Shown here: one piece after another, positions 32,941 to 64,000 of the stretch
Layout: every line of letters starts with the position of its first letter
How positions within the stretch are numbered: the stretch's first letter is position 1
From: Thalassomonas viridans
GTDB lineage: Bacteria > Pseudomonadota > Gammaproteobacteria > Enterobacterales > Alteromonadaceae
Length of the DNA stretch: 64,000 nucleotides
NCBI RefSeq assembly: GCF_000948985.2
Contig: NZ_CP059733.1
Location: 5,084,001-5,148,000, forward strand
Reading direction: 5' to 3'
Notes under the pieces: model-generated
Seen by the model: the letters and a program-made list of their open reading frames with translations, nothing else
What the model was told of the DNA's origin: nothing
Databases searched by the model: none
Translations under genes and position numbers: made by a program

Positions 32941-32944
32941 ATGT

Positions 32945-33532: not shown

Positions 33533-33604
33533 ATCTGTAAAGATTGAAATTGATATCAGCACTAAGATGTAGTCACTTTTCAGTAACAAGGAACATATAG
33601 GAAT

Positions 33605-34296: not shown

Positions 34297-34339
34297 ACTC
34301 TGATATAGCCTAGAGTTGCCTATTATTCATGATAATATT

Positions 34340-34858: not shown

Positions 34859-34994
34859 AATCAATACTAATGAAATATTTATCAGTCATGATACGGGTTT
34901 TGACTGGCAATCCCATATGTTACGCCAGCAAATATAAAAGCTAGCTGGAACAACTTACCCATGTATATTTATTCCTTAATTCGACAAACTCCGG

Positions 34995-35204: not shown

Positions 35205-35454
35205 CTTTTTGATCCTTATACTGTGAAAATTCTTGCTTAAGACTTTCCATTTGTTTTAGAAATACCGAGATATCATAGCCGCACCAGATTGTCAGGTTTA
35301 ACCCTGCATTCCATGAAATACGTGATTGACCAGATTCGTAGCGCTCATATGTGATACGACTAACACCTAGCATTTCCGCCATTTCTTCTGTGGTATAATT
35401 GCGAGATAACCGCATGCGCTTTAAATCAGCGCCGGTAACGAGTAGGTTTAACAT
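35119..35454 (-). CDS. XRE-family helix-turn-helix regulator
   Basis: 111 residues from the ATG at 35454; the longer frame begins with a hydrophobic stretch unlike a regulator. The HTH is residues of about 8-65: LKRMRLSRNYTTEEMAEMLGVSRITYERYESG, a Cro/CI-type fold. It is followed by a Gln/Lys-rich tail (about 75-111). Its C-terminal coding part overlaps the start of the double-glycine peptide gene, so the two are probably transcribed together and it may regulate its own operon. Confidence 0.7.
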   Translation of the reverse strand: MLNLLVTGADLKRMRLSRNYTTEEMAEMLGVSRITYERYESGQSRISWNAGLNLTIWCGYDISVFLKQMESLKQEFSQYKDQKDETKPNTQRASSKKNHLRQAGIIEPNKG

Positions 35455-35659
35455 TGAATGGATTCCCTTACTTATTATTCTTCCATATTTGTGCAAAGCG
35501 GATATTAAAAGAAACCAAATAAAAAGTGAAGAAAAACCACACAAGGAGAGCTGATTTAAAAATATTTTCCAATTGTCATTTCTGAACTAAACATTAATTA
35601 GACTAACTTATCCCCGTAATACAATCCGAGGGAATTCTAGCTGGGGTATTTGAGTCTTG

Positions 35660-35764
35660 GCATACCCATACTTTTTCCCTGTTAGGGGATACTTTGCACC
35701 TGACTTCCTACCAGCGTTCCTGTGATGTGCCTTTGGGGCTGAATTTCAACCAAATCCAGGTGTT
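35660..35764 (+). repeat. thyA fragment, inverted relative to intact thyA
   Basis: 105 bases match the complement of 38228-38332 in intact thyA at 101 positions. They encode [15 protein letters not shown]...GLNFNQIQV in frame, on the opposite strand to thyA. Nothing of thyA flanks it on either side. It is a fragment and cannot make an enzyme. Confidence 0.9.
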
Positions 35765-35988
35765 GAACAGTGTGATTCGTAAAGCCATTAATAAACGAAA
35801 GCTGTTTCCCACTGATGGTTCAGCGAAAAAAGTTGTTTATCTGGCTATACGGGAGGCCTCAAAAAAATGGACGATGCCCATAAGAGATTGGAAAACGGCC
35901 CTGAACCGATTTATATTCGAGTTCGAAGACCGTTTGAAAGGCTTTATATAAAACCGGCAGTTACACAAAATGCGGAACAGTATCATTA
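35765..35988 (+). pseudogene. IS256-family transposase C-terminal remnant
   Basis: Directly joined to the thyA fragment in the same frame is [20 protein letters not shown] ... [25 protein letters not shown], the usual C terminus of IS256 (mutator-type) transposases, ending at 35951. The following CGGCAGTTACACAAAATGCG and GGAACAGT resemble the right end of such elements. The catalytic DDE region and the left end are gone. Confidence 0.75.
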
Positions 35989-36029
35989 TTTTTTGTAGAT
36001 CTAATTAAATTCCCGATAAAATAATAAAC

Positions 36030-37679
36030 TTATCTAGTATCAATGGCTAAAGTTCTCCATAACATTTTATGTATATAAATTACAGAAGAGTTTTCTATTT
36101 TTTGATAAGTAATATCTTGGGTCTTATCATGAATCCATTTTACTGAACTTGTACCTGTTGTTTTTATACCAATAATTCCTACTTTGTATAGCGTGAAAAG
36201 CAGTTTTTGCTTTAACATGCGAAGATATGTGTCATTTTGAGGATATTCGCTATTTAGATAAAGTTGACTTGTAGTTATCACATCATCCGCATAGGCGGAT
36301 TTGTCTTCAGAAATTTGAAGAATTATTTGCTCTAACTCCTCCTTTTTTATTTCACTTACTTTGAAATTCTTTTTTCTATCATGAAGTATATCTATATAAA
36401 CTTTTAGGTGTTTATGCTCGACAAACCATTCATATTCTAGAGATTCCTTTCTTTCCAGAGAATAAGATTTTTCAGCGCTTTTAATTATAGAGCTAGTAAT
36501 TTCAGTTTTATTTTGAGCTTCAGATAAACATTCATTTATGAACATTACTGCATCCCTTGGGCGTAGAAGTGTTCTGTCCAAAATATAGTCTAATGCTGAT
36601 ACCTTATCCATTCTACTGGGAAAGACATCTTCAAAGCTAACCTCACTACTAATATATTTATATTTCAAAAGCTTATTTATTCTTTTATCTATAAGTTGAT
36701 AGAGTTGGCTCTTATCCCATCCGATATTTAGAAAAAGAGTTTTATACTTTTCTAATTGAAATCCTGAATCTCTTGTTTTTTCAATTACCCTACCTAGCAG
36801 ATCTTTTCGAAGAGTTATTATTATCTTTACAGTTTCTATCTTTCTAAACTTTTTAATAGACTCAATAAGAGCTCTTATTAATTTGTATCTTAAATCGTCT
36901 TCGACCCATTTTTCATCTAATCGATCTATTACTATAAAGTATTTTCTCTGCGGATCATTAAATATATCATCAGCAAGTAAGTTTATAATTTTAGATAATT
37001 TTTTTATCTGTACATCATTTACTACTTTTTTGCCATAGTGAATGATTTCTGACTTTTGCTCTTCGGTTAATTTATTTGTACTATCCGAGGATAAATCAAT
37101 ATTTCCAAGTTTTGTTTTCAATCCTGCTTTTAAACTTGACTCTAACTTCTCAGTAAACTCTTTAATTCTGAGTTCCGTACTAACCCAAAAACTTTCTCCC
37201 CAATTTTCTAGGTAGTCTAAGGCTTCCTTTTTTCTGATATTACCTGAAATTAATTGTTCTATTTTTGTGAAAAAAGTTCTTTTCTGACTTTCATCAGTTA
37301 TTGAGTATCGAGACTTTATTAGTTCTACAGCAAATGTGTGCTGCCACAAAAGGTTATAAAAGATATCTAGGTTTACTCCTAGACTTTCAAAAAAGGTTAA
37401 TATAGTTGAGTTAGATATGTGTTTTAAAGCAAGTTCTTCGGGTTCTATTTCAATAATTTTATGCTGGCTGTTATTAATTAAGTGAGATATTAAAGCGCTT
37501 TTACCTACACCTGTTCTTCCAACAATAATTGATTGCGGGCTTTCAGTATCTTCTAATACTTCGTAATCACCATTATCAACGAAGCAGTTTTTTAAAAATT
37601 TTTGATCATTTTCAGCATCTACTTCACCTATAGACATATGCTTTTTGAAAATAAAATCCTTTTTTGCCTTTTGAGACAT
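36030..37679 (-). CDS. P-loop ATPase (Sll1717/STAND-like), defence-type
   Basis: 549 residues, strongly AT-rich. Walker A VGRTGVGKSALI is near residue 55 and a Walker B-like YFIVIDRLDEKW near residue 250, followed by a sensor-like IIITLRKDLLGRV and LRPRDAVMFINECL, the pattern of the P-loop ATPase family named after Sll1717. Residues 85-215 are helical, and the C-terminal 120 residues may form a winged helix. Such ATPases occur in anti-phage islands, some with no associated effector. No nuclease or transmembrane partner gene lies beside it. It sits between a thyA/IS256 fragment and intact thyA, consistent with recent acquisition. A defence role is inference. Confidence 0.75.
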   Translation of the reverse strand: MSQKAKKDFIFKKHMSIGEVDAENDQKFLKNCFVDNGDYEVLEDTESPQSIIVGRTGVGKSALISHLINNSQHKIIEIEPEELALKHISNSTILTFFESLGVNLDIFYNLLWQHTFAVELIKSRYSITDESQKRTFFTKIEQLISGNIRKKEALDYLENWGESFWVSTELRIKEFTEKLESSLKAGLKTKLGNIDLSSDSTNKLTEEQKSEIIHYGKKVVNDVQIKKLSKIINLLADDIFNDPQRKYFIVIDRLDEKWVEDDLRYKLIRALIESIKKFRKIETVKIIITLRKDLLGRVIEKTRDSGFQLEKYKTLFLNIGWDKSQLYQLIDKRINKLLKYKYISSEVSFEDVFPSRMDKVSALDYILDRTLLRPRDAVMFINECLSEAQNKTEITSSIIKSAEKSYSLERKESLEYEWFVEHKHLKVYIDILHDRKKNFKVSEIKKEELEQIILQISEDKSAYADDVITTSQLYLNSEYPQNDTYLRMLKQKLLFTLYKVGIIGIKTTGTSSVKWIHDKTQDITYQKIENSSVIYIHKMLWRTLAIDTR

Positions 37680-37921
37680 TTATTTAATACCAAAGAAAAT
37701 AAATTTTTAATGATATATAAGAACATTGTTAAAATAAATGTATTTAACACTTGTATTTTGAAAACTTAATTAGTATCAAACTTATTGCTAATAATGAATT
37801 TTTGTTTTGAAACTTTTCTATTGTAAAAAACCTTAAAAAAGTTAAAAACAAGGACATTTTTAGGACAACTTATTTCAATTTACAACCCAACATCTTGAAT
37901 TAAACAAAATTAAGTTCAATT

Positions 37922-37946
37922 AAAAAGGAGCAGACGGCTCCTTTTT
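37922..37946 (-). terminator. Intrinsic terminator of thyA
   Basis: AAAAAGGAGC (37922-37931) pairs with GCTCCTTTTT (37937-37946) around a five-base loop, 17 bases after the thyA stop. The stretch 37680-37921 between it and the ATPase gene is very AT-rich and holds the ATPase promoter. No gene was seen there. Confidence 0.8.
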
Positions 37947-37962
37947 CAGTTAGCACTTGCCG

Positions 37963-38814
37963 TTAAACAGAAAACGGATAGGCGATTGCCTCATGGTGGC
38001 GGTAGCCCTCTATTTCAAAATCATCCAGGGTCACCCAGGTTTCCAGATCCTCCAGGGTTTTGATCTCCGGGTTGATATGCAGCTTAGGTGACGAATACGG
38101 CTCACGCTTAAGCTGTACTTCCTTCATCAGCTCCAGCTGATCTTCATAGATGTGGGCGTTCACTATTTTGTGGTACGCCTTACCCGCCTTGTGCCCTGTT
38201 ACCTGGGCAATCAGCGCCAGCAGGGTAAACACCTGGATTTGGTTGAAATTCAGGCCTAAAGGCACATCACAGGAACGCTGGTAGGAAGTCAGGTGCAAAG
38301 TATCCCCAAGCAGGGAAAAAGTATGGGTATGCATGCAGGGACGCAAACAGCCGAGATCGAATTCCCCCGGGTTGTAAAACGTCAGGATCTCGCCGCGGTC
38401 GTCAAGCCCCCGGCCGAGGTTGTCGACGATTTTACGCAGCTGATCTATGCCGGTGCCGTCAGGCTTTTGCCATGCACGCCCCTGTACCCCGTACACGCGC
38501 CCCATATCGTCCTCCCCCTTGCGGGCGGGATTAGCGAGCCAGGCCTGGTTATCGTTGGCATTGGCGTTCCAGGTATTGCAGCCGATAGCCCGGAACTGGG
38601 CGGCGCTGCTGTAGCCGCGCAGGTAACCCAGCAACTCGGCAATCGCCGCTCTCCAGTAGCTTTTCCTGGTGGTGATCAGGGGAAAGGCATTGCCGCCGAC
38701 GTCGTATTCCAGATCGGCATTGATCACGGTCAGGCAACGTTTGCCCGTCCTTTCATTTTCCACCCAGGTGCCTTCATCAACAAGGCGGCGGCATAAGTCT
38801 AAATAAGTTTTCAT
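37963..38814 (-). CDS. thyA: Thymidylate synthase
   Basis: 283 residues, the longer Vibrio/Shewanella form (E. coli has 264). It methylates dUMP to dTMP with methylene-tetrahydrofolate. The nucleophile Cys is in [11 protein letters not shown], the dUMP-binding segment is [18 protein letters not shown], and the late landmarks are [15 protein letters not shown] and the closing AIAYPFSV. The start overlaps the end of lgt by 4 bases, the conserved lgt-thyA arrangement. A part of its sequence recurs inverted at 35660-35764. Confidence 0.96.
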
Positions 38815-50465: not shown

Positions 50466-51122
50466 TCAGCGCTTAAACCAGCGGCGAAACTTATCGCGGC
50501 GCAGGGACAACAGGACCAGGATAAGCACCAGGTATATGCCGGGTTCAATAATCTCGGACTTTACCGACCAGTAAAAATGTATGCCCGCCAGGGGCACGGC
50601 CAGGTAGGTTAAGTTATGCAGTTTTTGCCAGCTTTTGCCCATACGGCGTTTCACCTTGTCAAAAGACGTCAGCGCCAGCGACAGCAAAATAATAAAGGCC
50701 GCCATGCCTACGGTAATATAGGGGCGCTTGAAGATTTCACCGACAAACAGGGCGATATCAAACTGCACCTCAAAAAACAGGAAATTAAGCAAATGCAGCA
50801 GGGCATAGGCAAAGGCATATAAGCCGAGCAGGCGCCTGGTTTTCATTAAAAAGCTCTGGCGGGTATATTTCGACAGCGGCGAAACCAGCAAGGTAATCAT
50901 CAGCAAATTCAGCGCCCCTATGCCGGTAAAGTGGATCACGGCTTCCACCGGATCCGCAGACAATCGATCCGTCAGCGCCAGGTAATAAAGGTTTACCAGC
51001 GGCAGCAGCGCCCCCAGGTGAATCAAGACCTTAAGCCAGAACACTTTCGTTGTCAGCACCTTATTCAGCCTTATCTTAAACGGGGCATCGAATGCCGTAC
51101 CTGCTTTTGCCTTGCTCGCCAT
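50466..51122 (-). CDS. msrQ: Heme-binding membrane subunit MsrQ
   Basis: 218 residues with about six helices of the ferric-reductase-like fold (LGALLPLVNLYYLAL, LLGLYAFAYALLHLL, LTYLAVPLAGIHFYW), including the His residues that hold heme b. MsrQ passes electrons from the quinone pool to the periplasmic methionine sulfoxide reductase MsrP. Its ATG overlaps the msrP stop by one base (TAATG), as expected for the pair. Confidence 0.93.
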   Translation of the reverse strand: MASKAKAGTAFDAPFKIRLNKVLTTKVFWLKVLIHLGALLPLVNLYYLALTDRLSADPVEAVIHFTGIGALNLLMITLLVSPLSKYTRQSFLMKTRRLLGLYAFAYALLHLLNFLFFEVQFDIALFVGEIFKRPYITVGMAAFIILLSLALTSFDKVKRRMGKSWQKLHNLTYLAVPLAGIHFYWSVKSEIIEPGIYLVLILVLLSLRRDKFRRWFKR

Positions 51123-52147
51123 TAATAATACTTCCTCAGGTCCATGCCCTTATACATGTCTGCCACTTCCTCGCCGTAACCGTTAAACGGCAGGGTCGGG
51201 ATACGGTTTCTCGCCAGCAGGCCTCCCGTGGTAATGCGCCTTTCGCTGGCCTGGCTCCACCTGGGGTGGGCAACCTCGGGATTGACGTTGGCGTAGAAGC
51301 CGTATTCATGCGGCGCCAGCATGTTCCAGGTGGTCGGCGGCTCTTTCTCTACCAGCTTGATGCCGACAATAGATTTAATGCTCTTAAAGCCGTACTTCCA
51401 GGGCACAACCAGACGTATCGGCGCACCGTTTTGCGGCGGCAGGGTTTTACCGTAAAGCCCCACCGCCATCAGGGTCAGGGGGTGCATGGCCTCGTCGATA
51501 CGCAAACCTTCGACATAAGGGTAATCTATACCGCCCCCCAGGCGCCGGCTGCGTTGTCCCGGCATCTGCTCGGGATCATGCAGGGTCTGAAAGGCAACAT
51601 ATTTGGCCCTGGAATTAGGCTGCGCCTTTTTCAGCAATTTAGCCAGGGGAAAGCCCACCCAGGGGATCACCATGGACCAGGCCTCGACACAGCGCAACCT
51701 GTAGATGCGCTCTTCCAGATCTATACCGGCAAACAACTGGTCGTAATCCAGGGTGATCTCTTTATCCACTTCTCCCGAGATCCTGAGCTGCCAGGGATTC
51801 ACCTTAAATCCCTGGGCAAGCTCTGCCGGCTGGTGTTTTTGCGCGCCAAATTCATAAAAATTATTATGGCTGATCACCTTGGCCTCGGGCGTCAGGGTTT
51901 CATCATAATCTTCAGCCCCCGCCTCAATGCTATAGGTTAAATCCTTGCGGGTAAAAACGGGCTTTTCCTTCTCCTTGAAGAAATCAAATACGCTGCCGTG
52001 TGCCGCCGACGACATGGCCGAAGAAAGCAGGGTCCCGGCGCCGATATAGCCCATGCCCTTAAGCAATTGCCTTCTTTGCAGGTAAACACTTTCTTCTGTC
52101 ACCTGATTTTCTGATAGCTCTGATTTTTTCGGTGTCCTGATCAACAT
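51122..52147 (-). CDS. msrP: Periplasmic methionine-sulfoxide reductase catalytic subunit MsrP
   Basis: 341 residues from the ATG at 52147 (GGGAAGAG upstream; the longer frame to 52312 is not supported). The twin-arginine signal is [20 protein letters not shown]. The molybdopterin site is around [19 protein letters not shown], with the metal-binding Cys. The late segment [17 protein letters not shown] is diagnostic. It repairs oxidised methionine in envelope proteins with electrons from MsrQ. It is exported folded by Tat. Confidence 0.94.
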
Positions 52148-52412
52148 ATACTCTTCCCGGCTAAAATGATTACCTTCTACTAATGCTATAGATAGCCCTG
52201 AGCTTGATAATATTTCATCTGTGATACTTTTGTTAACTTTAGCCGCCGTTAACCATGAATTAGCGTCAATGCCCGGCGAAAAAACAGACCCGGCTGACAA
52301 AAACAGCAGCAAATCAACAGAAATTTAAAGAAAAGGAAAGTTTAACGGCTTTAACGGCAAAGGAAGGGAAAGCTAACCTGCGCCCTGGGCGCAAGTCAGC
52401 TTTAAGAAATCA

Positions 52413-52775
52413 TTAACTGGCGATTTTTTCCAGGTAAGTGACAATTTCGCAGGATTCATACAACCAGTGCACCGACTTGTCCTGATTGACAATGCGCAGG
52501 CAAGGCACGGTACGCTTGCCGCCTTCGCTGATCAGTTCCTGTTTGTATTTTTCATCCTTATTGATATTACGCAGCTCAACCGGCAGGCCGTTGCGTTTCA
52601 TGGCGCGTCGGACCTTGACGCAAAACGGACAGGCCGGCAGCTGATACAAGCTCAGGTTGGCAATGCGCTGATTGATTTCCTGCTGCTCGGCGGCGGCTCT
52701 TTTCGGGCTGCGCGGGGTAAAAATAAAATCAAAAAACAGGATAATCCGGCCCAGGATCCAACGAATAATAAACAT
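52413..52775 (-). CDS. Membrane-anchored glutaredoxin-like protein
   Basis: 120 residues from the ATG at 52775. An N-terminal helix (MFIIRWILGRIILFFDFIF) is followed by a basic linker and a glutaredoxin/GST-N domain with the redox motif LPACPFCVKVRRAM, the cis-Pro in KRTVPCLRI and the C-terminal YESCEIVTYLEKIA. By charge the thiol domain should be cytosolic. Its family reduces disulfides or glutathione adducts. It lies downstream of the CPYC oxidoreductase gene on the same strand, after a 123-base gap. Confidence 0.85.
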   Translation of the reverse strand: MFIIRWILGRIILFFDFIFTPRSPKRAAAEQQEINQRIANLSLYQLPACPFCVKVRRAMKRNGLPVELRNINKDEKYKQELISEGGKRTVPCLRIVNQDKSVHWLYESCEIVTYLEKIAS

Positions 52776-52897
52776 AGCACTCACTTTTAACGACTTAAAA
52801 ACGGCGGCGAGTTTAGCATAATTTTTTTAACACAGGCAAAAAACGTTTAAATCTTGACCCGATCTGCCAACCCTGGTTAACGACATAGCTACCGGCT

Positions 52898-53827
52898 TTA
52901 GTTGCCAACCCCGACAGCCGGCATAGATGCCAGGCTGATGATTTCCTCAGAGAGAAACCCCGGGTAACGCTCCGGCTGCAGCACCATGCCGTTGATGGCA
53001 AAAGCGGTTTGCTTGCGGCCGTCCGCCGCCAGCAGCAGGCGTAATTCCGCCGACAGCCTGGCCTGTTCACTGTCTTTGCATGCCCGGCCTTCACAGCTGA
53101 GATCGGCAACAAACCAGTTATAGCGGTAATCCGCTTTCAAGGCATCGAGAAAAGCCTGCTGCTGCCTCAGGTGCCCGGGGGCAAACACTAGCATATTGGC
53201 CAGGCCGGTATGGGGCTGCTGCGGCAACTTTAAACTCAGGTAGCGCTGCCAGTTAAGCTGCACGGGTTTAACCGCCGTGCTCAGCCGGCGTTTAAACCTG
53301 TCCAGGGCGCCGATATGCACTTTCTGCCCGCCGAAATAATAGGAAGGCACCGACTGGGGATCATAACTGGCCACCACCTGTTCATTAAGCTGTTTTAAAC
53401 GGTTTTCCCCCTTGTCCTGCAGGGCCTTGTCACAGCTTACCTGCCTGCGGTTGATTACCGCGGCAAATACCGACAGGCTCACCGGATCTGCACAACCGAA
53501 GATTTCATCCACCTTAGTCTGGCTTGCCTGCCCCAGTATCGGCGACCAGAACATAAAAACATTGTAGCCCTTTAACTTATCAAGTTTTGTTAATGCCTTA
53601 ATACAATAAGGACAATAGGGATCTTTAAAGGCGATGATGCTGGGGGCATCCGGCTGCCAGGGTTCCAATAAAAATGCGCCATGGGTTTGTGGCGAGGGGA
53701 TAAGCCGGCTGTCGGCGCTTCCCGCCAGGGCAGCAACCGGGAAAACAAGCAAACCCAGGCATAAGTTCAGGCACAAACCCAGGCATAAATTCAGGAAAAA
53801 GTGCCGGAACCTGTTAAACAGCTTCAT
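52898..53827 (-). CDS. Periplasmic thioredoxin-fold (DsbC/DsbG-like) oxidoreductase
   Basis: 309 residues. A signal peptide with a repeated LNLCLG core precedes mature SADSRLIPSPQ. The redox site is FKDPYCPYCIKALTKL, CPYC being typical of DsbC-type isomerases, followed by a helical insert with two Cys (FGCADP and VSCDKAL) and the cis-Pro loop SVPSYYFGGQ. The last 100 residues form an unassigned extension (LNWQRYLSLKLPQQPHTG onward) with a further Cys pair around LSCEGRACKD. The gene overlaps the preceding one by 4 bases, which in turn follows the giant Cys-bearing protein gene by 9-15 bases. A role in disulfide formation for that product is the simplest reading, but it is inference. Confidence 0.8.
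   Translation of the reverse strand: MKLFNRFRHFFLNLCLGLCLNLCLGLLVFPVAALAGSADSRLIPSPQTHGAFLLEPWQPDAPSIIAFKDPYCPYCIKALTKLDKLKGYNVFMFWSPILGQASQTKVDEIFGCADPVSLSVFAAVINRRQVSCDKALQDKGENRLKQLNEQVVASYDPQSVPSYYFGGQKVHIGALDRFKRRLSTAVKPVQLNWQRYLSLKLPQQPHTGLANMLVFAPGHLRQQQAFLDALKADYRYNWFVADLSCEGRACKDSEQARLSAELRLLLAADGRKQTAFAINGMVLQPERYPGFLSEEIISLASMPAVGVGN
53751..53798 (-). repeat. Tandem 24-bp repeat inside a signal-peptide coding region
   Basis: AAACCCAGGCATAAGTTCAGG recurs 24 bases later with one change. It encodes repeated LCLNLCLG in the hydrophobic core of the oxidoreductase signal peptide, so gain or loss of one copy would lengthen or shorten the core by eight residues in frame. Confidence 0.8.
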
Positions 53828-54255
53828 ATTTCACCCTTGTTGACTTTCGCCAGCACGGCTTTTTTATAGGCCTGCGCCGCTTCCTTCATCCGCTGCTCCA
53901 GCGCTTTTCTCGCCCCGGGATCATCCAGCACCTGGTTATATTCCTGAATGATCACATCCAGCTGCTGCTCCGACTGCGCCAGCACCTCATCGGCATTAAA
54001 ACTTGCATCAACAGCCACCAACTCCTTTGCCGCTTCCCGGACTTTGGCCAGTTTTCGCTGGTCAAAGTCCGGCAAAGTGTTTACCGGCTTATTGCCTAAC
54101 GGGTTAGTAACCGGCTTTAATTGCTCCTGATTCGCCGCCTGGCCCGGCCCCGATTCCAGCCCCTGTTGCCAGGAGTTAACCAGCATAAAATAAGCGGCCA
54201 GGCAGATCAGCGCCAACAACAAGATCACGGCTTTTATATTCACTGTTCGTTTCAT
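53824..54255 (-). CDS. Membrane-anchored helical protein, unknown
   Basis: 143 residues from the ATG at 54255, chosen for AGGGAG five bases upstream. One N-terminal transmembrane helix (AVILLLALICLAAYFMLV) is followed by a Pro/Gln-rich linker and a C-terminal helical region (about 65-140) with coiled-coil character (VREAAKELVAVDAS, LAQSEQQLDVIIQEYNQVL, EQRMKEAAQAYKKAVLAK). No family is recognised. It sits between the giant protein gene and the thiol oxidoreductase gene, with a 4-base overlap to the latter, so it is probably a member of that operon. Confidence 0.75.
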   Translation of the reverse strand: MKRTVNIKAVILLLALICLAAYFMLVNSWQQGLESGPGQAANQEQLKPVTNPLGNKPVNTLPDFDQRKLAKVREAAKELVAVDASFNADEVLAQSEQQLDVIIQEYNQVLDDPGARKALEQRMKEAAQAYKKAVLAKVNKGEI

Positions 54256-54270
54256 AAACACTCCCTGCCC

Positions 54271-55229
54271 TTACTCCAGGTTTTGGGTATCGAAATAATA
54301 AGACCAGCAGCACTGGCTGTTGCCTGTCCTGTCCGGCACATGACGCAAATAAACATATATCCGGGTATTTTCCGGGAAAGGATTCAGCGGGGTAAAGGTT
54401 ACCTTATTGCCGTCAAAAGAGAAATTGCCCGGATAATAGGTGGAGCCGGAATAAATACGTATCGGGGCGCTGGAATGATTCTCCCCCAGATTCCGGGGAT
54501 CCAGGATATCGTCAAAGGTCAGTTCGACCGCCGTATTCACCGCCTGGTCGCTGCTGCCGTGTTCCGGCAGCATAGTACTCAACACAGGACCGCTGGTATC
54601 TAAGGCATCCGAGCTGGCGGTGCTGAAGTTCAACTGATAGCCGACAAGAAGGTTATTCGCCAGATCACAGATGCCGTCCAGTTGCAGGCTAAAGTCGGTG
54701 GCAATCGCCAGAGGCTGCGCCGGGGTAAAGCTAATGGTTTTACGGTCCGAGCTTAACGCCACAGTGCCGTCAACCTGGCTGCCACCCCCTGAAAGGCTGA
54801 CGGTAGCGCTATTGACGCAATGGTGCGCCAGCACTTCGTTGACAACCAGGCGCAGCGGGGTATTAACCGGCACCTGGGATAAGCCCAAATCCAGGTTGGT
54901 TACCGCAACTTGCGGCGCGCCGTTATCGTCGCTCTGGCCTGTGGTGAAATAATAGCTGTTATACCAACCGATATTATTGCTGGCCAGATCCTTAAGCGGC
55001 GTGCCGTAACTGATATACACATAATACCTGTGGCCGGCTTCCAGCAGCTCAGGGGTAAAGGTCACCCGGCGGCCGTCTGCGCTTAAGCTTATCTCCCCTT
55101 CGATATAAACGCCGTCGGTCTGGTCATAAAGCCTGAAACTCTGGCTGTTTAACGAGGTAGGATCGATACGCTCGTTAAAATCGGCGGTGACCAGCGTATT
55201 CAGCGGCACCTCCTGGCTATTATTGCCTG
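54271..55229 (-). repeat. Super-repeat unit 3 of the giant protein, cut after three modules
   Basis: 959 bp, corresponding to the first three modules of units 1 and 2 (YSPGNNSQEVPLN to CCWSYYFDT). The protein ends directly after the CCW module. Confidence 0.88.
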
Positions 55230-58200
55230 GGCTGTACGAACGTAAGCCGCCGGTTAACACGTCCACCCCGGCCGAGGTTTTAAAGCTGATTTGTGTAGCC
55301 GTTGCCAGCACATTGCCGCTGATATCCTGCAAACCGGATACCTGCAGGCTAATCCAGCTATCCGCAGGCAGCAGGGTTTTCGGCGTCAGGGTCAGCACAG
55401 TGCCCGAGCTGTCCAGGCTGTAACCCGTATTCAGCACCTGATTGCCGGCAGACAGGGTGGCGCCGCCGAGGTACAACTTATTGACCGGCTCGTTAAAGAC
55501 CAGCCTGATGCGGGCATTGGTAGGCACGGCTTCAAGTCCTTCGCTAACAGAGGTCTGCAGCAAGACAGGCGCACTGGTATCCGCCTCGGCGCCGCTATAA
55601 AAATAGAAGGCATCGGCGGAATTGCTATTGCCGCTGAGATCGCTGACATTGCCCAGGTAGGCATAATACCTGTGCTCCGGCACCAGGGCTTCATCCGGCA
55701 CCCAGGTCAGGGTCTTGCCGTCGCTGTCTATGCCGATAGTCCCCGGTACCTTGTTCCAGCCGTCATTGGTATCCTGGACATAGAAGTTGCCCGAACTCAG
55801 GCTAACCGGGTCCACCACCTCGTTCATCAGCCAGGTCACCGACGTATTGGTGGCCACGGTACTGTTGGCCGTGGGCACATAGCTGGTGTAGTTAGGGGCG
55901 CTGACATCCAGGTTGCTGCCCGTGGTAAAGCTTTCGCTGTGCTCCACCACCAGGTTACCGGAATAGTCCCGGACACCGCTGACCGTCTCGGTATGGCCGC
56001 TGTTCACAGGCAAGGGCGAATACCTGTGATAGAGCACTTCCCTGTTGCCGGACGCAAAAGACAGGCTGAGGTTATTCTGATCCGGGAAGCTCAGGGTATT
56101 GATGCCCTCGTCAAACCTCAGGTGGTACCTGGGATTAATACTGACATTTTCCATGCCGCTGGCCGGGCTCATTTCCAGCACCACAGGACGCTGCAGATCC
56201 GCCACCGCATCCGCCCCTGTGGTAAAGCCGAAGGAGCGGTTGTAATACTGGTTATCGCCGTCGGTATCCTGAATGCGATAATCCAGGCTGACATAATAAT
56301 AACTGTCCGCAGCCAGCAGGCCGGCGGGCACCACTTCCACGGTACGGCCGTCGCCGTTCAAGCTTACCTGAGCCGGAATCACAGTGCCGCTGTTATCCCT
56401 GAGCACCACCCGGGTGTCATCGATATAGTCGCTGTCCATCTGCTGGTTGTAGGCGATCTGGATACTGGGGTTGAGCATCACCCCGGTGCTGCCATTGCTG
56501 GGCACATAGGTTTGCGGCGTCGGCCTGATGCCCGCGGTATCCTGGGTATTGGCCACCCGGAAACTGCCCTGGTACTGGTTGATGGCATTGCCTGAGTCGT
56601 CTCTGGCGCTTGAGTCCAGATAGACATGAACCAGGGCATTGCTGGCCAAAGGCGTCTCCGGAATAAATTCGATCGCCTGCCCGGAGGCGGTCAGGTTGAG
56701 CTGGCCTTCAATCAGCACGCCGTTTTCGGCAACGCGGAAGGCGCCTGCCAGGCTGCTTTCGTCCATGGCCTCGGAAGTGTAAACAACAATCCTGGTATCG
56801 GCAGGCACATTGGTGGCGCCGTTGTTGGGATATAAACGGGCCACGCTGGGACGGGAGTTATCGTTATCCACCACGGCCGTGGTAAAGACGCGCACCTCAT
56901 CCACCAGGGCATTGTTGCTTAAGTCCTGCACGCCGCCGGTCACCAGCACGGAAACGGCTTTGCCCCCGGGCCAGGTACCCCTTAAGGTTACAGTTTGCGC
57001 ATCGGCGGAGCGGTACACGCTCGGGGTAATGATATTGCCGTCGCTGTAGAGCTTAAAGTTATTGCTGTTCACCGTCGCCGCATTCAGCGATTCGCTGAAG
57101 GTCAGGACCACGGGAATATTAACCCCGATATCCATAGCGCCGTCATTAGGCGTGACCGACACCAGCACCGGCGGCTCGGTATCGAACTCCGGCGCCGTGG
57201 TAAAGCTGTAGTACCAGCAGCAACTGGAATTGCCCACCAGATCCTTCACATAGCGGGCCTGCACTTCTATCCTGCTGCCGCCGGGCAAGGAAGTCGCCGG
57301 GGTAAAGGTCATGACGTTATCATTAATCTCATAACTGCCGGCGAGATCGCCGCTTTGGCCGTTTTTAAATATCCGCACCTGGGCGGCACTGGTTACCGGA
57401 TCTATAGTTTCATCAAAGGTCAGGACGATCTGGCTGTTAACGTCTACTTCCGTAGCATTATGAGCCGGGGAAATAGCCGTAACCCTGGGATAGGCGGTAT
57501 CGGCATTGCCCTGGCTGTCGCTGGTAAAGTTCAGGCTGTAGTCTTCCAGGGTATTACCGGCCAGGTCGCACAATCCCTGTATGCTCAGGCTATAGGCCGT
57601 CCCGGCGGCCAGGTGCTCATCCGGGGTAAAGGTCAGGGTTTTCCTGTCGCTACTCAGGGCCAGGACACCGGCTACTGTGCCCGTACCGCCGGATAAGACC
57701 ACGGTTTCATCGCTGAGACAATGGGGAACCAGGGGTTCATCAAACAGCAGGCGCAGCGGCGCATTCACCGGCACCTCAAGCAGGCCTTCGCCGATATTGG
57801 CAACCCTGACCACAGGCGCGCTGTTATCCGCCTGATCTGAGGTGGTAAAGTAGAAGCTGTTATACCAGCCGATATTGTTACCGGCAAAGTCCTTAAGGGG
57901 CGTGCCGTAACTGACATAAACATAATACCTGTGGCCGGCTTCAAGGGTCTCAGGGGTAAAGATAATGCGGCGGCCGTCTTCGCTTAATTGCCGCTGGCCG
58001 CTGATATCACGTCCCCTGGTCTGGTTATAAAGCCTGAAACTCTGGCTGTTTAACGTTGCCGGATCGATGCGCTCGCTAAAGTCCGCCGAGATCTGGGCAT
58101 TAAGCGGCACATCCAGGGCGTTGTTAAGCGGGCTGTAACCGGTCAGGCTGCCGTTTAGCACGTCCACGCCGGCACGGGTCTTAAAGTTCACCTCCACCGG

Positions 58201-61200
58201 ACTGGCCTGGGCATTGCCGCTGAGATCCGCCAGGCCTGTCACCGACAGGGTCAGCCAGCTGTCGCCGGGCAGCAGGGTCAGCGGCGTCAGGGTCAGCACG
58301 GTTCCCGAGCTGTCCAGGCTGGCGCTGACATTCTGCCTGACCCCCGAGGCGCTTATGCTGACGCCGTCAAGCAGCAGTTTGTTCACCGGCTCGTCCAGTA
58401 CCACACGCAACCTGGCATTGGTGGCAATATCCTGCTGGCCTTCAAAAACTGAGGTCTGGCTCACCTGTGGCGAGCGGGTATCCTGCTCCGTGCCCGTATA
58501 GAAGTAGAAGGCATCGGCAGAATTGCTGTTGCCGCTGTGATCTGTGATATTGCCGATATAAGCATAATAACGCCGTCCCACCGCCAGGGCCTGGTTTGGC
58601 ACCCAGGTCAGGGTTTTGCCGTCGGCGGCAATACCGATAGTGCCGGGCACATGCTGCCAGCCGTCATAGGTATCCTGGACATAGAAGTTGCTGCTGTTGA
58701 CGCTTAAGGGATCGATCACCTCGTTCATCACCCAGGTCACCCGGGCATTGGTGGCAACCGTGCTGTTGGCAACCGGCACATAAGTCTGGTAGTTAGGTCT
58801 GGTAACATCCGGACTTTCCCCTGTGGTAAAGGTTTCACTGTGCTCCATCACCAGGTTGCCGGCATAGTCGCGAATGCCGCTGACGGTTTCGGTATGCTCG
58901 CTGCTGACCGCCAGGGGCGAATACCTGTGGTAGAACACTTCCTTATTGCCGGAAGCAAAAGCCACGCTCATTTGGCTACTGCCCGGGAAAGTCAGGGGAT
59001 TTATCTTTTCATCGAAGCGCACATGGTACCTGGGGTTGATACCGACATTATCCATGCCGGTGGCAGGATTCATGGCCAGCACCATAGGCCGCTGCTGATC
59101 TTCCACCGCCTGCGCCCCTGTGGTAAAGCCGAAGGAGCGGTTGTAATACTGGCGGTCGCCGTCGGTATCTTCGATGCGGTAGTCCAGGTTGACAGTATAA
59201 TAGGTATCCGGCGTCAATAACTCTGCCGGCACCACTTCCACGGTATAACCGTCTTCACTCAGGTTCACCTGGGCCGACAGCACTGTACTGCCGCTTTGCC
59301 TGAGCACCACATAGCTATCATTGATAAAATCAGGGTTAAGCTGCTGGTTATAGGCTATCTGGATACTGGGGTTAAGCATGATCTCGGTAGCACTGTTGCC
59401 CGGCATATAAGTCACCGGCGTCGGCCGGGTGCCGGCAGTATTGCCGCTGTTGGCCACCCTGAAGCTTGCCTGGTACTGGTTGATGGCATTGCCTGAGTCA
59501 TCCCGGGCGCTGCTGCTGAGATAGACATGCACCAGGGCATTGTTGCTAAAGGGCACATCCGGGGTAAATTCTATCGCCTGGCCGGAAGCCGACAGGCTCA
59601 GGGTGCCGTCGATCAGCACGCCGTTTTCCGCCACGCGGAAGGCACCGGGTAAACTGCTTTCATCCATGACCTCAGAGGTATAGAGCACGATCACGCTATC
59701 GGCAGGCACGTTGGTGGCGCCGTTACTGGGGTACAAACGGGAAACACCGGGACGGGAATTGTCGTTATCCACCACGGCTGTGGTAAAGACGCTGGCATAA
59801 TCCGTCAGGGCATTGCCGCTGAGGTCGGTAACATCCTTGGTGACTATCACGGAAACGGCTTTACCTGCCGGCCAGGTGCCGCGCAGGGTCACGGTTTGCG
59901 CATCGCCGGAGCGGTACACGCTCGGGGTGATAATACTGCCGTCGCTGTACAGCTTAAAATTATTGTTGTTGACGGTAGAGGCATTTAGCGACTCGTTAAA
60001 GGTCAGCACGATAGGGATATTCACCCCTATGTCCATGGCGCCGTCGTCCGGGCTGATGGCGGCAACCACAGGGGCCTGGAGATCGGCTTCCGGCATGGTA
60101 GTGAAAGAATAGTACCAGCAGCAACTGGCGTTGCCCGCCAGATCCTGGACATACCTGGCCTGTACCTCAATTTTACTGCCGCCGGGCAAAGGCGTTGCCG
60201 GGGTAAAGGTCAGCACATTGTCGTTGACCTCGTAATGACCGGCGAGATCGCCGCTTTGCCCGGTTTTAAAAATCCGCACCTTGCCGGCGGCGGTCACAGG
60301 ATCTATCGCCTCGTCAAAGGTCACTATTATCTGGCTGTTAACATCGACATCGACACTGTTATGGACCGGGGACATGCCGGATACCCGCGGATAGCTGGTA
60401 TCCGTTAACCCGTCGGCATGCGAGGTAAAGTTCAGTTCGTAACCGGCCAGGACATTGCCGGATAAATCGCACAAGCCGTCCAGGGCCAGGGTATAACCGG
60501 TATTGGCGGCCAGGTGCTCACTCGGGGTAATGGTGAGCTCCTGCCGGTCGTTGCTTAAGCTGACATTAAAGGCAACCTCGCCGCTCCCGTTGCTGAAGCT
60601 GATGCTGTTCTCATTGACACACTGGGGCGACAGCTCCTCGCTGAAACGCAGTTTGATCGGCGCATTAACCGGCACCCCGGTCAAGCCGTCGCTGATATTA
60701 GTGACGCTGACTTGTGGTCCGGTATTATCCGCCGTGCCGGAAGTGGTGAAATAAAAGCTGTTATACCAGCCGATATTGTTGCCCGCCAAGTCTTTTAGCG
60801 GCGTACCGTAGCTGATATAAACATAATACCTGTGGCCGGGGTTTAAGCTATCCGGGGTAAAGTCCACCCTCAGGCCGTCGTCGCTTAAGCTTAACTGACC
60901 GGGCACATTGCGTCCTGTCGTCTGGTTATACAAACGGTAGCTGTTGCTGTTTAACGAAGTCGGGTCGATGCGCTCGTTAAACTCTGTGCTGATCCCGGTA
61001 TTTAGCGGCACATCCAGGGCATTGTTGGCGGGGCTGTAGCTGAGCCAGCTGCCTCCCTGGCTATCGGCCCCCGCGCCTGTGGTAAAGGCGAATTCCTGGC
61101 TTTGCGCCAGCAGGTTGCCGCTCAGATCCGCCAGGCCGTCAACCACCAGGCTATATTGGCTGTCGGCGTCCAGGCTGACCTTGGGCTTGATGGTCAAGAG

Positions 61201-64000
61201 GCGCAGATCATTGCTGGAACTCCTGTCCGACGGCACTTCGACGCCGTTTGCCATGATTTTGATGTTTTTGATGGAGTAGCCGTTAATGGCCTCGTTCATT
61301 AAAATATTGAACCTGGCATTGGTGGGCACCTCACTCTGGCCGTCACGAATGCTGACGCTTGCCACCAGGGGGGCAACCCCGTCGGCATCAAAGGCGGTGG
61401 TGAAATAATAATTGCTGGTGCCCGACTTATTGTTGCCGAACAAATCCTTGATATCCGAGGTCAGCACTACCCTGTGGCGTCTGCCCACCAAAAAGGCGGC
61501 ATTGGGGGTAAAAGTCAGGGTCTGGCTGTCGTCTTTAACATCCACCAGGCCGTCAATCCTGAGGTTGGTGGAGGTATCGAGCACATAAAAAGAATCCGGG
61601 GTCACGGTTTGCGGGTCGATACGCTCGCTCATGATCAACGTCAGGGAGGCATTCACCGGCACATCGGCGGCGTTATTCACCGGGTTAATAGCGGCAACCG
61701 TCGGCCTGACGGTATCTACGGTATTGCCGGTAACAAAGCTGAAACTGTACTCCTGCGCCAGCAGGTTGCCGGCGGCATCCTTGAGCCCCTGCACCTTCAC
61801 CGTGTAGGAAGTGTAATCCTTTAACAGCGCCGAAGGGGTAAAGAGCAGCTGCTGGTCGCCGCCGATCAGCTGGCGCGTGCCTGCAATTTCCACCACGCCG
61901 TCTTCGAGCAACAGCAGCGAGTCCGCCCTGAGGGATTTTTTCGAAATCAGCTCGGAAAAGTCGATAATAATCGCGGTGTTTTCCGGAACCTCAGTGGCAT
62001 CCACCGCCGGCTCTGTGGTCAGGATAGTCGGGGCCACGGTATCCGGGTTGGTGGGATCTGTGCCGTTAGCCACTTCGTCGCCGTCAGACAGGCCGTCGTC
62101 ATCGGTATCTTCTTTATTGGCGTTGGTGCCGCGGGCAACTTCCTCGCCGTCTCCCAGGCCATCGCCGTCGGTATCGAATTTCGCCGGGTCGGTAAACCAG
62201 ATCTCAGCTTCCTCCTGATCGCCGAGGCCGTCGTTATCTTCATCGTTTTGTACTTCCAGGGTAACCCGGGAAGAGCTGGTGGTGTTGCCCCCCAGGTCCA
62301 TGGCCCTGGCTTCCACCGCCAGTGCGGAAATGCCCTCGGGTACTGTATAGGGCGTCTGGTAGGGGAAAGTGGTGTCTTCCGCCACCTTGTCGCCGTTAAC
62401 AATGAACTCGATTTTCGCCACGGCAATATCGTCTTCGGCATCGGCGGATAAGATCAGGCGCTTGCCTTCCACCGTCACCCCGTTCACCCCGGGACTGGTC
62501 AGGGCAACCGTCGGGAAGATGCCGTTGACATCATTTAACATACGGTACTGGGCAACAAAAAGCTTAGAATCCCCCGAGGCCTTATAGTCGCTGCTCACCA
62601 CAAAGCGCTCTTCGGTGATAAAGGCATGGGTGGCGTCCACGGCGATGCCGGTGCCGGCATAATCTCCCAGCGGCGACAGGTTGATGGTATCCTGGAAAAA
62701 AGGATTGTCGGCATCCTTGATATTGACGTAGGCGGCAACGTTGGGGAACAGCTGCTCGGCAAAGAAAGCAAAGCCGTTTGTGATGGCGACGTCCCGGGGC
62801 ACGAAACTGCCGTCTCCCCCTTTCAGCTCCAGGGTGTTGGCCTCGGTGATCTTATACACCCGGTAACCCGAGCTGTAGGCGGCCACGTAAACATAACCGT
62901 TATCCAGGGCGACATCCTTCACCGGCCCGATATTGATGGTGGTCAGCCTTAAGGGGTTGGTAATATCGCTGATGTCAAACAGCGCCAGCGAGCTGCCGCC
63001 GACGGCCACCAGCTTGTCCCCCTCAACGGCTATGCCTTTGACATCACCGAGCTGGTCGGTATAGGCCACGGAGAAAATATTGTCCGGGTCGCCGACATCG
63101 ACAATTTCAATGCCTGCGCTGCCGTCGGCGATAAAGACATAATCCCCCAACAGCGCCAGATCCTGGGCTATGCCTGCGGTATCAAGCGTTGACCTCAGCA
63201 CCGGATTTTCCGCCTCGGAAATATCTATCACCTGCAGCCCGGACTCGCCGTCCGCCACATAGGCAAGGTTGCCGGCAGCCTTGACGTCGATCGCCGTACC
63301 CGGGGTGTCCAGCTCGCCGATAATTTCCGGGTTATCCCGCTGGATCACCGACAACACCTGCAAACCGGCGTTGCCCGAAGCGACATAGGCCTGGTTGCCC
63401 TGGATATCGACATTATTGCCGTACCCGGGCAGGACGACGGCCTTTTGCGCCACCGGGGTAAACTCGGTCACGGTTACATCGACGACAAAGCTTTTACCGC
63501 CGTTGGTTACCGTCAGCTGGGTTTGCCCCGACTGGCCGGCAAAAATCTGCCCGTCGGTGAGGCCGAAATTGGCAATGGAAATATCTGCGGTCTGGTAACG
63601 GGTGCCTGTACTTTGATCCGTTAAGTCCACCGAAGTGCCGTCGAGCATATAGCCGGTAATGCTGAGCTGGCCGCTGGCCTCGCCGTCGATGGCGTTATAG
63701 GTCAGCAGCAGGTCTTCCGGGGTGGCGACGATAAAGTTCAGGTAATCGCTTAATTCACCGCTGGCGGCATCATTGGGATCCGAGCCGCCGAGGATTTCCA
63801 GGCCGTCGGTGATACCGTCGCCGTCGCTGTCTTCCAGCAGGGCGTTGGTGACAAAGCCGTCGCTGCCGGGTTCAAGCTCTTCCTTGTCCTCGATGCCGTC
63901 GCCGTCGGTATCCTTACTGCGGATATCTGTGCCCGCCTGGTATTCCTGTAGGGCATTGAGGCCGTCATTGTCGAGATCTTCCAGGGCATCTATGGGATCA
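54271..64000 (-). CDS. Giant Ig-like repeat surface/secreted protein (partial, 5' end outside the window)
   Basis: The frame is open from the window edge to 54271, 3,242 residues, and the upstream codons are coding, so the ATG at 63648 is not the start. From the N-terminal side: calcium-binding thrombospondin-3-like DxDxDG repeats (63750-64000), LVIVD-type beta-propeller repeats (about 62560-63440; GLQVLSVIQ, GLQVIDISE, GIEIVDVGD), a vertebrate-Ig-like module, a second DxDxDG cluster (about 62060-62250), then 24 Big_5/SbsA-type Ig-like modules of about 107 residues. Many modules share V-P-x-N at the first strand, F-x-E-x-I, LTFTP and DLAGN. Cys pairs recur (QCVNEN with GLCDLSG; SCCWYYSF). The last module ends the protein without a sorting tail that I recognise. 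Likely an adhesin or biofilm matrix protein. Confidence 0.9.
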   Translation of the reverse strand, partial: DPIDALEDLDNDGLNALQEYQAGTDIRSKDTDGDGIEDKEELEPGSDGFVTNALLEDSDGDGITDGLEILGGSDPNDAASGELSDYLNFIVATPEDLLLTYNAIDGEASGQLSITGYMLDGTSVDLTDQSTGTRYQTADISIANFGLTDGQIFAGQSGQTQLTVTNGGKSFVVDVTVTEFTPVAQKAVVLPGYGNNVDIQGNQAYVASGNAGLQVLSVIQRDNPEIIGELDTPGTAIDVKAAGNLAYVADGESGLQVIDISEAENPVLRSTLDTAGIAQDLALLGDYVFIADGSAGIEIVDVGDPDNIFSVAYTDQLGDVKGIAVEGDKLVAVGGSSLALFDISDITNPLRLTTINIGPVKDVALDNGYVYVAAYSSGYRVYKITEANTLELKGGDGSFVPRDVAITNGFAFFAEQLFPNVAAYVNIKDADNPFFQDTINLSPLGDYAGTGIAVDATHAFITEERFVVSSDYKASGDSKLFVAQYRMLNDVNGIFPTVALTSPGVNGVTVEGKRLILSADAEDDIAVAKIEFIVNGDKVAEDTTFPYQTPYTVPEGISALAVEARAMDLGGNTTSSSRVTLEVQNDEDNDGLGDQEEAEIWFTDPAKFDTDGDGLGDGEEVARGTNANKEDTDDDGLSDGDEVANGTDPTNPDTVAPTILTTEPAVDATEVPENTAIIIDFSELISKKSLRADSLLLLEDGVVEIAGTRQLIGGDQQLLFTPSALLKDYTSYTVKVQGLKDAAGNLLAQEYSFSFVTGNTVDTVRPTVAAINPVNNAADVPVNASLTLIMSERIDPQTVTPDSFYVLDTSTNLRIDGLVDVKDDSQTLTFTPNAAFLVGRRHRVVLTSDIKDLFGNNKSGTSNYYFTTAFDADGVAPLVASVSIRDGQSEVPTNARFNILMNEAINGYSIKNIKIMANGVEVPSDRSSSNDLRLLTIKPKVSLDADSQYSLVVDGLADLSGNLLAQSQEFAFTTGAGADSQGGSWLSYSPANNALDVPLNTGISTEFNERIDPTSLNSNSYRLYNQTTGRNVPGQLSLSDDGLRVDFTPDSLNPGHRYYVYISYGTPLKDLAGNNIGWYNSFYFTTSGTADNTGPQVSVTNISDGLTGVPVNAPIKLRFSEELSPQCVNENSISFSNGSGEVAFNVSLSNDRQELTITPSEHLAANTGYTLALDGLCDLSGNVLAGYELNFTSHADGLTDTSYPRVSGMSPVHNSVDVDVNSQIIVTFDEAIDPVTAAGKVRIFKTGQSGDLAGHYEVNDNVLTFTPATPLPGGSKIEVQARYVQDLAGNASCCWYYSFTTMPEADLQAPVVAAISPDDGAMDIGVNIPIVLTFNESLNASTVNNNNFKLYSDGSIITPSVYRSGDAQTVTLRGTWPAGKAVSVIVTKDVTDLSGNALTDYASVFTTAVVDNDNSRPGVSRLYPSNGATNVPADSVIVLYTSEVMDESSLPGAFRVAENGVLIDGTLSLSASGQAIEFTPDVPFSNNALVHVYLSSSARDDSGNAINQYQASFRVANSGNTAGTRPTPVTYMPGNSATEIMLNPSIQIAYNQQLNPDFINDSYVVLRQSGSTVLSAQVNLSEDGYTVEVVPAELLTPDTYYTVNLDYRIEDTDGDRQYYNRSFGFTTGAQAVEDQQRPMVLAMNPATGMDNVGINPRYHVRFDEKINPLTFPGSSQMSVAFASGNKEVFYHRYSPLAVSSEHTETVSGIRDYAGNLVMEHSETFTTGESPDVTRPNYQTYVPVANSTVATNARVTWVMNEVIDPLSVNSSNFYVQDTYDGWQHVPGTIGIAADGKTLTWVPNQALAVGRRYYAYIGNITDHSGNSNSADAFYFYTGTEQDTRSPQVSQTSVFEGQQDIATNARLRVVLDEPVNKLLLDGVSISASGVRQNVSASLDSSGTVLTLTPLTLLPGDSWLTLSVTGLADLSGNAQASPVEVNFKTRAGVDVLNGSLTGYSPLNNALDVPLNAQISADFSERIDPATLNSQSFRLYNQTRGRDISGQRQLSEDGRRIIFTPETLEAGHRYYVYVSYGTPLKDFAGNNIGWYNSFYFTTSDQADNSAPVVRVANIGEGLLEVPVNAPLRLLFDEPLVPHCLSDETVVLSGGTGTVAGVLALSSDRKTLTFTPDEHLAAGTAYSLSIQGLCDLAGNTLEDYSLNFTSDSQGNADTAYPRVTAISPAHNATEVDVNSQIVLTFDETIDPVTSAAQVRIFKNGQSGDLAGSYEINDNVMTFTPATSLPGGSRIEVQARYVKDLVGNSSCCWYYSFTTAPEFDTEPPVLVSVTPNDGAMDIGVNIPVVLTFSESLNAATVNSNNFKLYSDGNIITPSVYRSADAQTVTLRGTWPGGKAVSVLVTGGVQDLSNNALVDEVRVFTTAVVDNDNSRPSVARLYPNNGATNVPADTRIVVYTSEAMDESSLAGAFRVAENGVLIEGQLNLTASGQAIEFIPETPLASNALVHVYLDSSARDDSGNAINQYQGSFRVANTQDTAGIRPTPQTYVPSNGSTGVMLNPSIQIAYNQQMDSDYIDDTRVVLRDNSGTVIPAQVSLNGDGRTVEVVPAGLLAADSYYYVSLDYRIQDTDGDNQYYNRSFGFTTGADAVADLQRPVVLEMSPASGMENVSINPRYHLRFDEGINTLSFPDQNNLSLSFASGNREVLYHRYSPLPVNSGHTETVSGVRDYSGNLVVEHSESFTTGSNLDVSAPNYTSYVPTANSTVATNTSVTWLMNEVVDPVSLSSGNFYVQDTNDGWNKVPGTIGIDSDGKTLTWVPDEALVPEHRYYAYLGNVSDLSGNSNSADAFYFYSGAEADTSAPVLLQTSVSEGLEAVPTNARIRLVFNEPVNKLYLGGATLSAGNQVLNTGYSLDSSGTVLTLTPKTLLPADSWISLQVSGLQDISGNVLATATQISFKTSAGVDVLTGGLRSYSPGNNSQEVPLNTLVTADFNERIDPTSLNSQSFRLYDQTDGVYIEGEISLSADGRRVTFTPELLEAGHRYYVYISYGTPLKDLASNNIGWYNSYYFTTGQSDDNGAPQVAVTNLDLGLSQVPVNTPLRLVVNEVLAHHCVNSATVSLSGGGSQVDGTVALSSDRKTISFTPAQPLAIATDFSLQLDGICDLANNLLVGYQLNFSTASSDALDTSGPVLSTMLPEHGSSDQAVNTAVELTFDDILDPRNLGENHSSAPIRIYSGSTYYPGNFSFDGNKVTFTPLNPFPENTRIYVYLRHVPDRTGNSQCCWSYYFDTQNLE
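55230..58130 (-). repeat. Super-repeat unit 2 of the giant protein (nine Ig-like modules)
   Basis: 2,901 bp, the same nine modules in the same order as unit 1, with many substitutions but no net length change. It starts at YSPLNNALDVPLN. Confidence 0.9.
58131..61031 (-). repeat. Super-repeat unit 1 of the giant protein (nine Ig-like modules)
   Basis: 2,901 bp, 967 residues, starting at the module YSPANNALDVPLN. It contains nine successive modules, with the third closing on ASCCWYYSFTT. The anchor GGGCTGTA lies at 61031, 58130 and 55229, exactly 2,901 bases apart each time. Confidence 0.9.

Follow-up and report, generated by a model that had tools for sequence, protein, structure and literature searches.

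This analysis concerns a gene cluster of Thalassomonas viridans that reaches into one end of a stretch of 64,000 nucleotides (G000:C1:5084001-5148000, forward strand, in a 7.95-Mb genome of two contigs). We call this whole stretch the window. All genes of the cluster are on the minus strand. An initial annotation, made from the window alone, gave their order as a giant repeat protein, a small helical protein, a CPYC thiol oxidoreductase and a CPFC glutaredoxin, and that order is borne out. The giant does not lie fully inside the window: its open reading frame (ORF; 54271..64000, minus strand) runs on to an ATG at 64641. Joining the adjacent DNA to the ORF gives 3456 residues, with the start 641 bases beyond the window. 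The N-terminus looks like a Sec-type signal peptide when judged by eye, in agreement with the annotation of a secreted-type protein. Pfam searches of the 3242 residues inside the window return 22 Big_5 stretches, LVIVD repeats, TSP3_bac and Big_7. The giant is built from a super-repeat (54274..61551, minus strand, approximate boundaries) with a unit of 967 residues, or 2901 bases. Compared with itself it has 52.6% ungapped identity at an offset of 967, against 10.8% at the next best offset. Eight related giants have best self-offsets of 967-1001, with identities of 14-53%. A cysteine (Cys) pair occurs once per super-repeat: C1341/C1391 (60469..60621), C2308/C2358 (57568..57720) and C3275/C3325 (54667..54819), all on the minus strand. 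An N-terminal pair, these three C-(49)-C pairs and three doublets of adjacent Cys within CCW motifs account for all 14 Cys. The super-repeat pair, like the N-terminal pair, is present in 8/8 related giants (the short G050 giant has it twice, the others three times), whereas CCW is in only 2/8 and is a feature of the genus. A search with the giant's N-terminal domain, covering proteins of 0.55-1.75 times the query length, found 72 proteins, many with lengths near 2490, 3110-3255, 3430-3490 and 4420-4440.

Next to the giant is the helical protein (53824..54261, minus strand). It has one transmembrane segment and no Pfam family and is predicted to anchor or accompany the CPYC enzyme, and its length is 143 residues from the ATG at 54255 or 145 from the GTG at 54261. 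The gap of 9-15 bases to the giant stands as annotated (9 from the GTG start, 15 from the ATG), and so does the 4-base overlap with the CPYC gene (52898..53827, minus strand). Spacing between the helical and CPYC genes runs from -29 to +9 bases in eight measured loci and is -4 in three, window included. The CPYC enzyme has 309 residues, a signal-peptide-like N-terminus and a predicted thioredoxin fold. In its structure model a signal-peptide-like helix (residues 3-35) leads straight into the thioredoxin domain, and that model contains no DsbC-type N-terminal dimerisation domain. The thioredoxin domain carries CxxC and a V160-P161 loop at the place of the cis-Pro loop of this fold. The predicted fold matches thioredoxin-fold enzymes, and a second domain lies at about residues 205-300. 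The family has four invariant Cys, and both C72/C75 and V160-P161 are invariant in 18 sequences. Identity to DsbC, DsbG, ScsC and BdbD is 10-18%, and the protein differs from them in having an additional alpha/beta region at the C-terminus as well as two more invariant Cys.

The distribution of this family was examined in two sets of genomes. The first comprises 147 genomes (own included), 11 of which have the giant's N-terminal domain, and the second 38 genomes picked for possessing a giant. A strong match is one with E < 1e-20 and the motif CPYC or CGYC. Eight loci in the first set and 16 in the second, less 6 shared by contig and coordinates, give 18 distinct loci; weak CPYC-type matches (G037 and G113 in the 147-genome set, G169, G170 and G175 in the other) are outside these counts. 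The gene adjoins a giant at 18/18 loci. The whole giant is readable in one stretch at eight of them. At L059 and L075 it directly adjoins the CPYC gene, at seven its end adjoins on a continuing contig, and at L116, on a separate contig, the adjoining 1491-residue ORF is 38% identical to our giant over 1510 columns. The CPYC gene is 3' of the giant at 17 of the 18 and 5' of it in Microbulbifer harenosus (L075). A helical gene is present at 16/18, traced by synteny and a home-made profile; a plain protein search gave 3 matches, query included. The giant, helical and CPYC triad is conserved, and a thiol oxidoreductase is tied to this giant, as the initial annotation had it.

There is also a second enzyme family. 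We call the CPYC family type A. Type B is a Thioredoxin_4/DSBA-type (DsbA-like) enzyme found in 13 other clusters, 12 of them with a giant and the thirteenth in G110. Two examples begin with a lipoprotein-like or hydrophobic segment, and a heptad helix precedes their thioredoxin domain. The readable parts of type B clusters contain no detectable helical gene. In type A the helical protein may supply in trans the function that type B enzymes have built in as an N-terminal anchor and helix. In the type B cluster L065 the contig is too short to show an effector, the upstream partner described below. A comparison of gene order among homologues is therefore mixed: all 18 CPYC loci lie beside a giant, but 12 giant clusters have the other family and nine inspected clusters have no recognised oxidoreductase in their readable stretch. 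Cluster counts leave out the paralogue clusters of G002 and G003 as well as L058, L072, L087, L091 and L097, which have short or broken giant ORFs. Clusters on contigs that stop short of the downstream genes (such as L050, L052, L056, L069, L078, L079, L086, L088, L089, L090, L093 and L100-L102) are not counted as lacking an oxidoreductase. One type B gene (L113 in G161, flipped coordinates 2903-7973) lies away from the giant, between a 456-residue protein and a 767-residue protein with 22 Cys, and is possibly another dedicated pair. The T. viridans genome has a paralogous cluster too (G000:C1, about 2310000-2333000; L042, L043), with a PEP-CTERM-like gene, a 1415-residue Cys-rich protein with an HELVH tail, a 3248-residue giant and a DsbA-like CPYC lipoprotein.

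The initial annotation, confined to the window, missed a more Cys-rich partner upstream of the giant. This protein (L002:6448-9915, minus strand, outside the window) has 1155 residues, 25 Cys, and Glucodextran_B and CarboxypepD_reg-type domains. We refer to it as the effector, a candidate one. Relatives occur at 42/53 named giant loci, in Alteromonas, Catenovulum, Grimontia, Pseudomaricurvus, Methylomonas, SAR324 and others; in SAR324 the relative is 3' of the giant. Strong matches (E < 1e-70) are in 12/147 genomes, which are exactly the 11 with the giant N-terminal domain plus G110, and eight genomes with weak matches are outside these counts. In these effectors a motif around KAGWHC leads into a Cys-rich linker and then into a tail that varies from species to species. 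The constant parts of 31 proteins with at least 450 residues before the KAGWH motif were compared (paralogue effectors, which have no motif, were left out). All 465 pairs are similar, with a median identity of 62.5%. Only 244/465 pairs of tails are similar, even with the linker counted in, and the last 170 residues of 36 tails (those under 150 residues left out) fall into 20 BLAST clusters.

The sharpest test of a swapped tail beside conserved neighbours is the comparison within the genus. Between our species and its sister species the constant part is 87% identical over 780 residues, the giant 84%, the PEP-CTERM protein 87%, the CPYC protein 78% and the helical protein 54%. The linker is 52% alike, and the last 230 residues of the tail match only at E 0.064. 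The small genes after the effector, which we call followers, change as well: our two (168 and 357 residues) match the single sister follower at E 0.21 and 2.9, which is no detectable similarity. Identities of 78-87% for the constant part, the giant and the CPYC protein, set against tail ends and followers that show no similarity, give the architecture of a polymorphic toxin. A conserved N-terminal part joined to unrelated C-terminal tails is found in the 31 heads, in the 36 tails and in the swap between sister species.

Followers mostly track tails, and they are candidate immunity proteins. Five of the six tail clusters with at least 2 members have one follower family throughout, and the sixth has it in 2/3. 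In tail cluster 0, seven loci have two paired followers of 178-216 residues, though their hosts are close kin. The PLA2-like tails of Halioglobus and Pseudomaricurvus have a common follower of 388-404 residues, the HExxH tails of two methanotrophs have a common follower pair of about 100 residues, and Pseudomaricurvus has three effectors, three tails and three followers. Followers mostly start with a hydrophobic stretch, so protection would act outside the cytoplasm. Some tails have recognisable domains or motifs. The tail of L090 has RHS repeats (E 8e-69), and HExxH motifs are in the tails of L064, L073, L074, L101 and the paralogue in our own genome. PLA2-like domains match the tails of L066, L079 and L080, and an M15-like domain that of L082. 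Another genome has a single possible stand-alone or truncated tail cassette (L127:9527-11173), unless this is a remnant.

We think it reasonably probable that the window contains the downstream half of a conserved cluster, likely a polymorphic-toxin system. It would combine a Cys-rich effector with a swapped tail, predicted immunity proteins, a giant predicted to serve in display or delivery, and a helical protein with a CPYC enzyme predicted to act on disulfides. The effector and giant would enter the periplasm by Sec. The helical protein may hold the CPYC enzyme at the inner membrane, and the enzyme would form or shuffle the disulfides of the effector's 25 Cys and the giant's Cys pairs. With 25 Cys in a third of the giant's length, where the giant has 14, and with a swapped tail, the effector is no less likely than the giant to be a client. 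The giant would display or deliver the effector, which would act outside the cytoplasm of the target cell, and the secreted small proteins would protect kin, also outside the cytoplasm. We are more hesitant, at slightly less than an even chance, about calling this a new class of polymorphic toxin. In such a class, swappable warheads stapled by disulfides would sit behind a constant immunoglobulin-like (Ig)/carboxypeptidase-regulatory head. The carrier would be the 3456-residue super-repeat protein, action would be extracytoplasmic with secreted immunity, and the system's own folding enzyme would have been recruited from two thioredoxin-fold families.

Several observations weigh against the toxin interpretation. 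The tail of our own effector is beta-rich with no Pfam match and no known enzyme domain. It has no YD/RHS repeats, which one homologue (L090) does have. Its AlphaFold model is of low confidence (predicted local distance difference test score 68.1, predicted template modelling score 0.38), and Foldseek gave that model no PDB match at E <= 0.001. Weak Foldseek rows (lipid-transfer proteins, pores, porins) are scattered and we read them as meaningless. The M15-like (E 3e-4) and PLA2-like (E 0.001-0.006) matches are weak and below curated cut-offs, and one tail of the beta-rich type (L050) contains HExxH too. The BLAST tail clusters may split distant relatives, some of them beta-rich, and 18 tails from several clusters can still be aligned with the linker included. 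Two follower families are each found with several tail clusters, the L079 follower is not detectably related to the other two followers of the PLA2-like cluster, and none of 10 followers tested has a Pfam family above cut-off. Beyond the Sec-type N-termini judged by eye no secretion signal was noted, and no search was made for parts of a secretion system among the neighbours. Between the 357-residue follower gene and the giant there is a terminator-like 10-bp hairpin with a T-rich stretch (L002, about 4715-4740), so effector and giant may not share one transcript.

The distribution of the enzyme also counts against this interpretation. There is no type A or B gene in the readable stretch of nine clusters (two of them, L054 and L077, cut by contig ends), and Cys-rich effectors are found among these: L051 has 27 Cys, L095 23 and L096 30. 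The effectors of the others have 14 (L082), 12 (L055), 11 (L077), 8 (G001:C2) and 5 (L099/L112). L059 and L070 have the enzyme and effectors with only 10 and 12 Cys. L089 has a helical gene, an effector with 2 Cys and a giant with 13, which points to the giant as the client. Taken together, these cases mean that the enzyme is either dispensable or provided from elsewhere, and that the giant, too, may be among its clients. An argument from G110, that it has an effector and a type B enzyme beside a Cys-free large protein, is dropped, since the ORF of that large protein is mostly N and unreadable. In SAR324 (L055/L128) a 3180-residue protein directly after the effector (L128:5636-15178) has transglutaminase, SpvB, FG-GAP, RHS_repeat and TcdB_toxin_midN matches. 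This RHS/SpvB neighbour offsets the loss of the G110 argument, and we leave our estimate where it was.

One could instead read the locus as a system for folding and displaying a giant adhesin. The CPYC enzyme would then mainly serve the giant's Cys pairs, and the Cys-rich protein would be a second adhesin with a variable ligand-binding tip. The helical gene beside the nearly Cys-free effector of L089 fits this, as do the position of the CPYC gene 3' of the giant at 17/18 type A loci, the N-terminal and super-repeat Cys pairs of 8/8 giants, the beta-rich tail without a known enzyme domain, and a pAdhesive_15 domain in one effector (L051). On the other hand, RHS, PLA2-like, HExxH and M15-like tails with secreted genes that track them resemble toxins and immunity, not adhesin tips. 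We consider an adhesin system rather unlikely. The initial annotation proposed "a dedicated folding and display system for one very large adhesin". The tie between oxidoreductase and giant stands, but the proposal is too narrow given the upstream partner with 25 Cys and a swapped tail. Overall its observations are partly confirmed and its interpretation is partly supported.

The flanking genes suggest another explanation. An FG-GAP protein of about 1200 residues lies beside our cluster (L002:10963-14565, outside the window), as does a multihaem protein resembling cytochrome c554, hydrophobic in its N-terminal part (L002:16814-18889, outside the window). FG-GAP proteins are at 26/59 loci read and multihaem cytochrome-type proteins at 16/59, many of these loci being cut by contig ends. 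The oxidoreductase might therefore mainly keep the CxxC haem-binding motifs of the neighbouring cytochrome reduced (ResA/CcmG-like), with the locus serving extracellular electron transfer or a surface matrix. This is improbable. The oxidoreductase adjoins the giant or the effector, not the cytochrome. G001 and G002 keep the cytochrome while the whole block, CPYC gene included, is missing, and the paralogous cluster in our own genome has effector, giant and oxidoreductase with no cytochrome match in the 32 kb seen. Least probable of all is that a general periplasmic thiol oxidoreductase sits here by chance: one type B homologue (L113) is away from the giant and nine clusters have no oxidoreductase in their readable stretch, but 8/8 strong type A matches among the 147 genomes (11 with the giant N-terminal domain) and 16/16 in the 38 giant-selected genomes are beside a giant, and two different oxidoreductase families recur in the same cluster.

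The CPFC glutaredoxin (52413..52784, minus strand; PF00462, E 7.5e-16) has a hydrophobic N-terminus and lies 113 bases downstream of the CPYC gene. The initial annotation listed it with the gene set, and we reject it as a member of the system. It has matches in 41/59 genomes (own included), 33 of them at E <= 1.1e-25. Among type A genomes in this set, G012 lacks a CPFC match, and in G103 the match is on a different contig. G001 and G002 have the cytochrome followed by CPFC and then by two MsrP/MsrQ-like genes, and both lack the block from FG-GAP to CPYC, so CPFC is a flanking gene. In the window MsrP and MsrQ (methionine sulfoxide reductase, 50466-52312) follow the glutaredoxin, and the genes that come after it in G001, G002 and G003 begin in a similar way. 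Directly upstream of the effector is a small protein with a PEP-CTERM-like end (L002:9989-10615, outside the window), found in the same place in several relatives. A promoter scan gave 6 sites against 9.0 expected, and a terminator scan 17 against 13.0 expected. Elsewhere in the window, the guanine plus cytosine content drops to 0.29-0.41 at positions 30001-38000, compared with 0.43-0.58 for the remainder, a sign that this part may be foreign.

The cluster resembles the polymorphic toxin systems of Zhang et al. 2012 (PMC3482391, of which a part was available) in its constant N-terminal part, swapped C-terminal tail and a following gene that mostly tracks the tail, and in its RHS tail and weakly matched PLA2-like tails. 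That paper also mentions bacterial Ig domains next to RHS toxins. Unlike the systems in that part, ours has a 3456-residue Ig-super-repeat/beta-propeller partner and an oxidoreductase within the cluster, its effector has a Cys-rich linker, and its candidate immunity proteins are predicted to be secreted. The words thioredoxin, disulfide, PEP-CTERM and DsbA have 0 occurrences in the first 300,000 characters of that paper. The VARTIG modules of Thermococcales (Makarova et al. 2021, PMC8416519, likewise in part) also have a large Ig-domain protein and a hypervariable polymorphic-toxin-like module. Those are archaeal and the Ig protein itself is hypervariable, whereas in our cluster it is the Cys-rich neighbour that varies, next to a conserved giant. 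For the enzyme, the available text of PMC6067686 offers a likeness in the additional DsbA-type enzymes DsbL/DsbI and plasmid-borne SrgA, extra periplasmic thiol oxidoreductases thought to serve a restricted client set; DsbL/DsbI are described there as possibly dedicated. In the portions of the MafA/MafB literature at hand, DsbA appears only as a fractionation marker or in a cited title. Among the titles and beginnings of abstracts returned by full-text searches of open-licence literature we found no description of this cluster. We regard it as a likely polymorphic-toxin system that carries its own disulfide enzyme, in a build for which those searches gave no record.

If this is true, marine and methanotrophic Gammaproteobacteria would share with some distant lineages (SAR324, Mariprofundus and an Acidobacteria metagenome-assembled genome) a weapon that the papers searched do not describe, with effectors that depend on disulfide machinery of their own. 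Functions could then be given to proteins that so far carry only the names "Ig-like domain-containing" or "large repetitive protein". The cluster would supply new candidate families of toxins and immunity proteins for oxidising compartments, and it would allow a clean test of the way in which a single oxidoreductase is matched to interchangeable clients.
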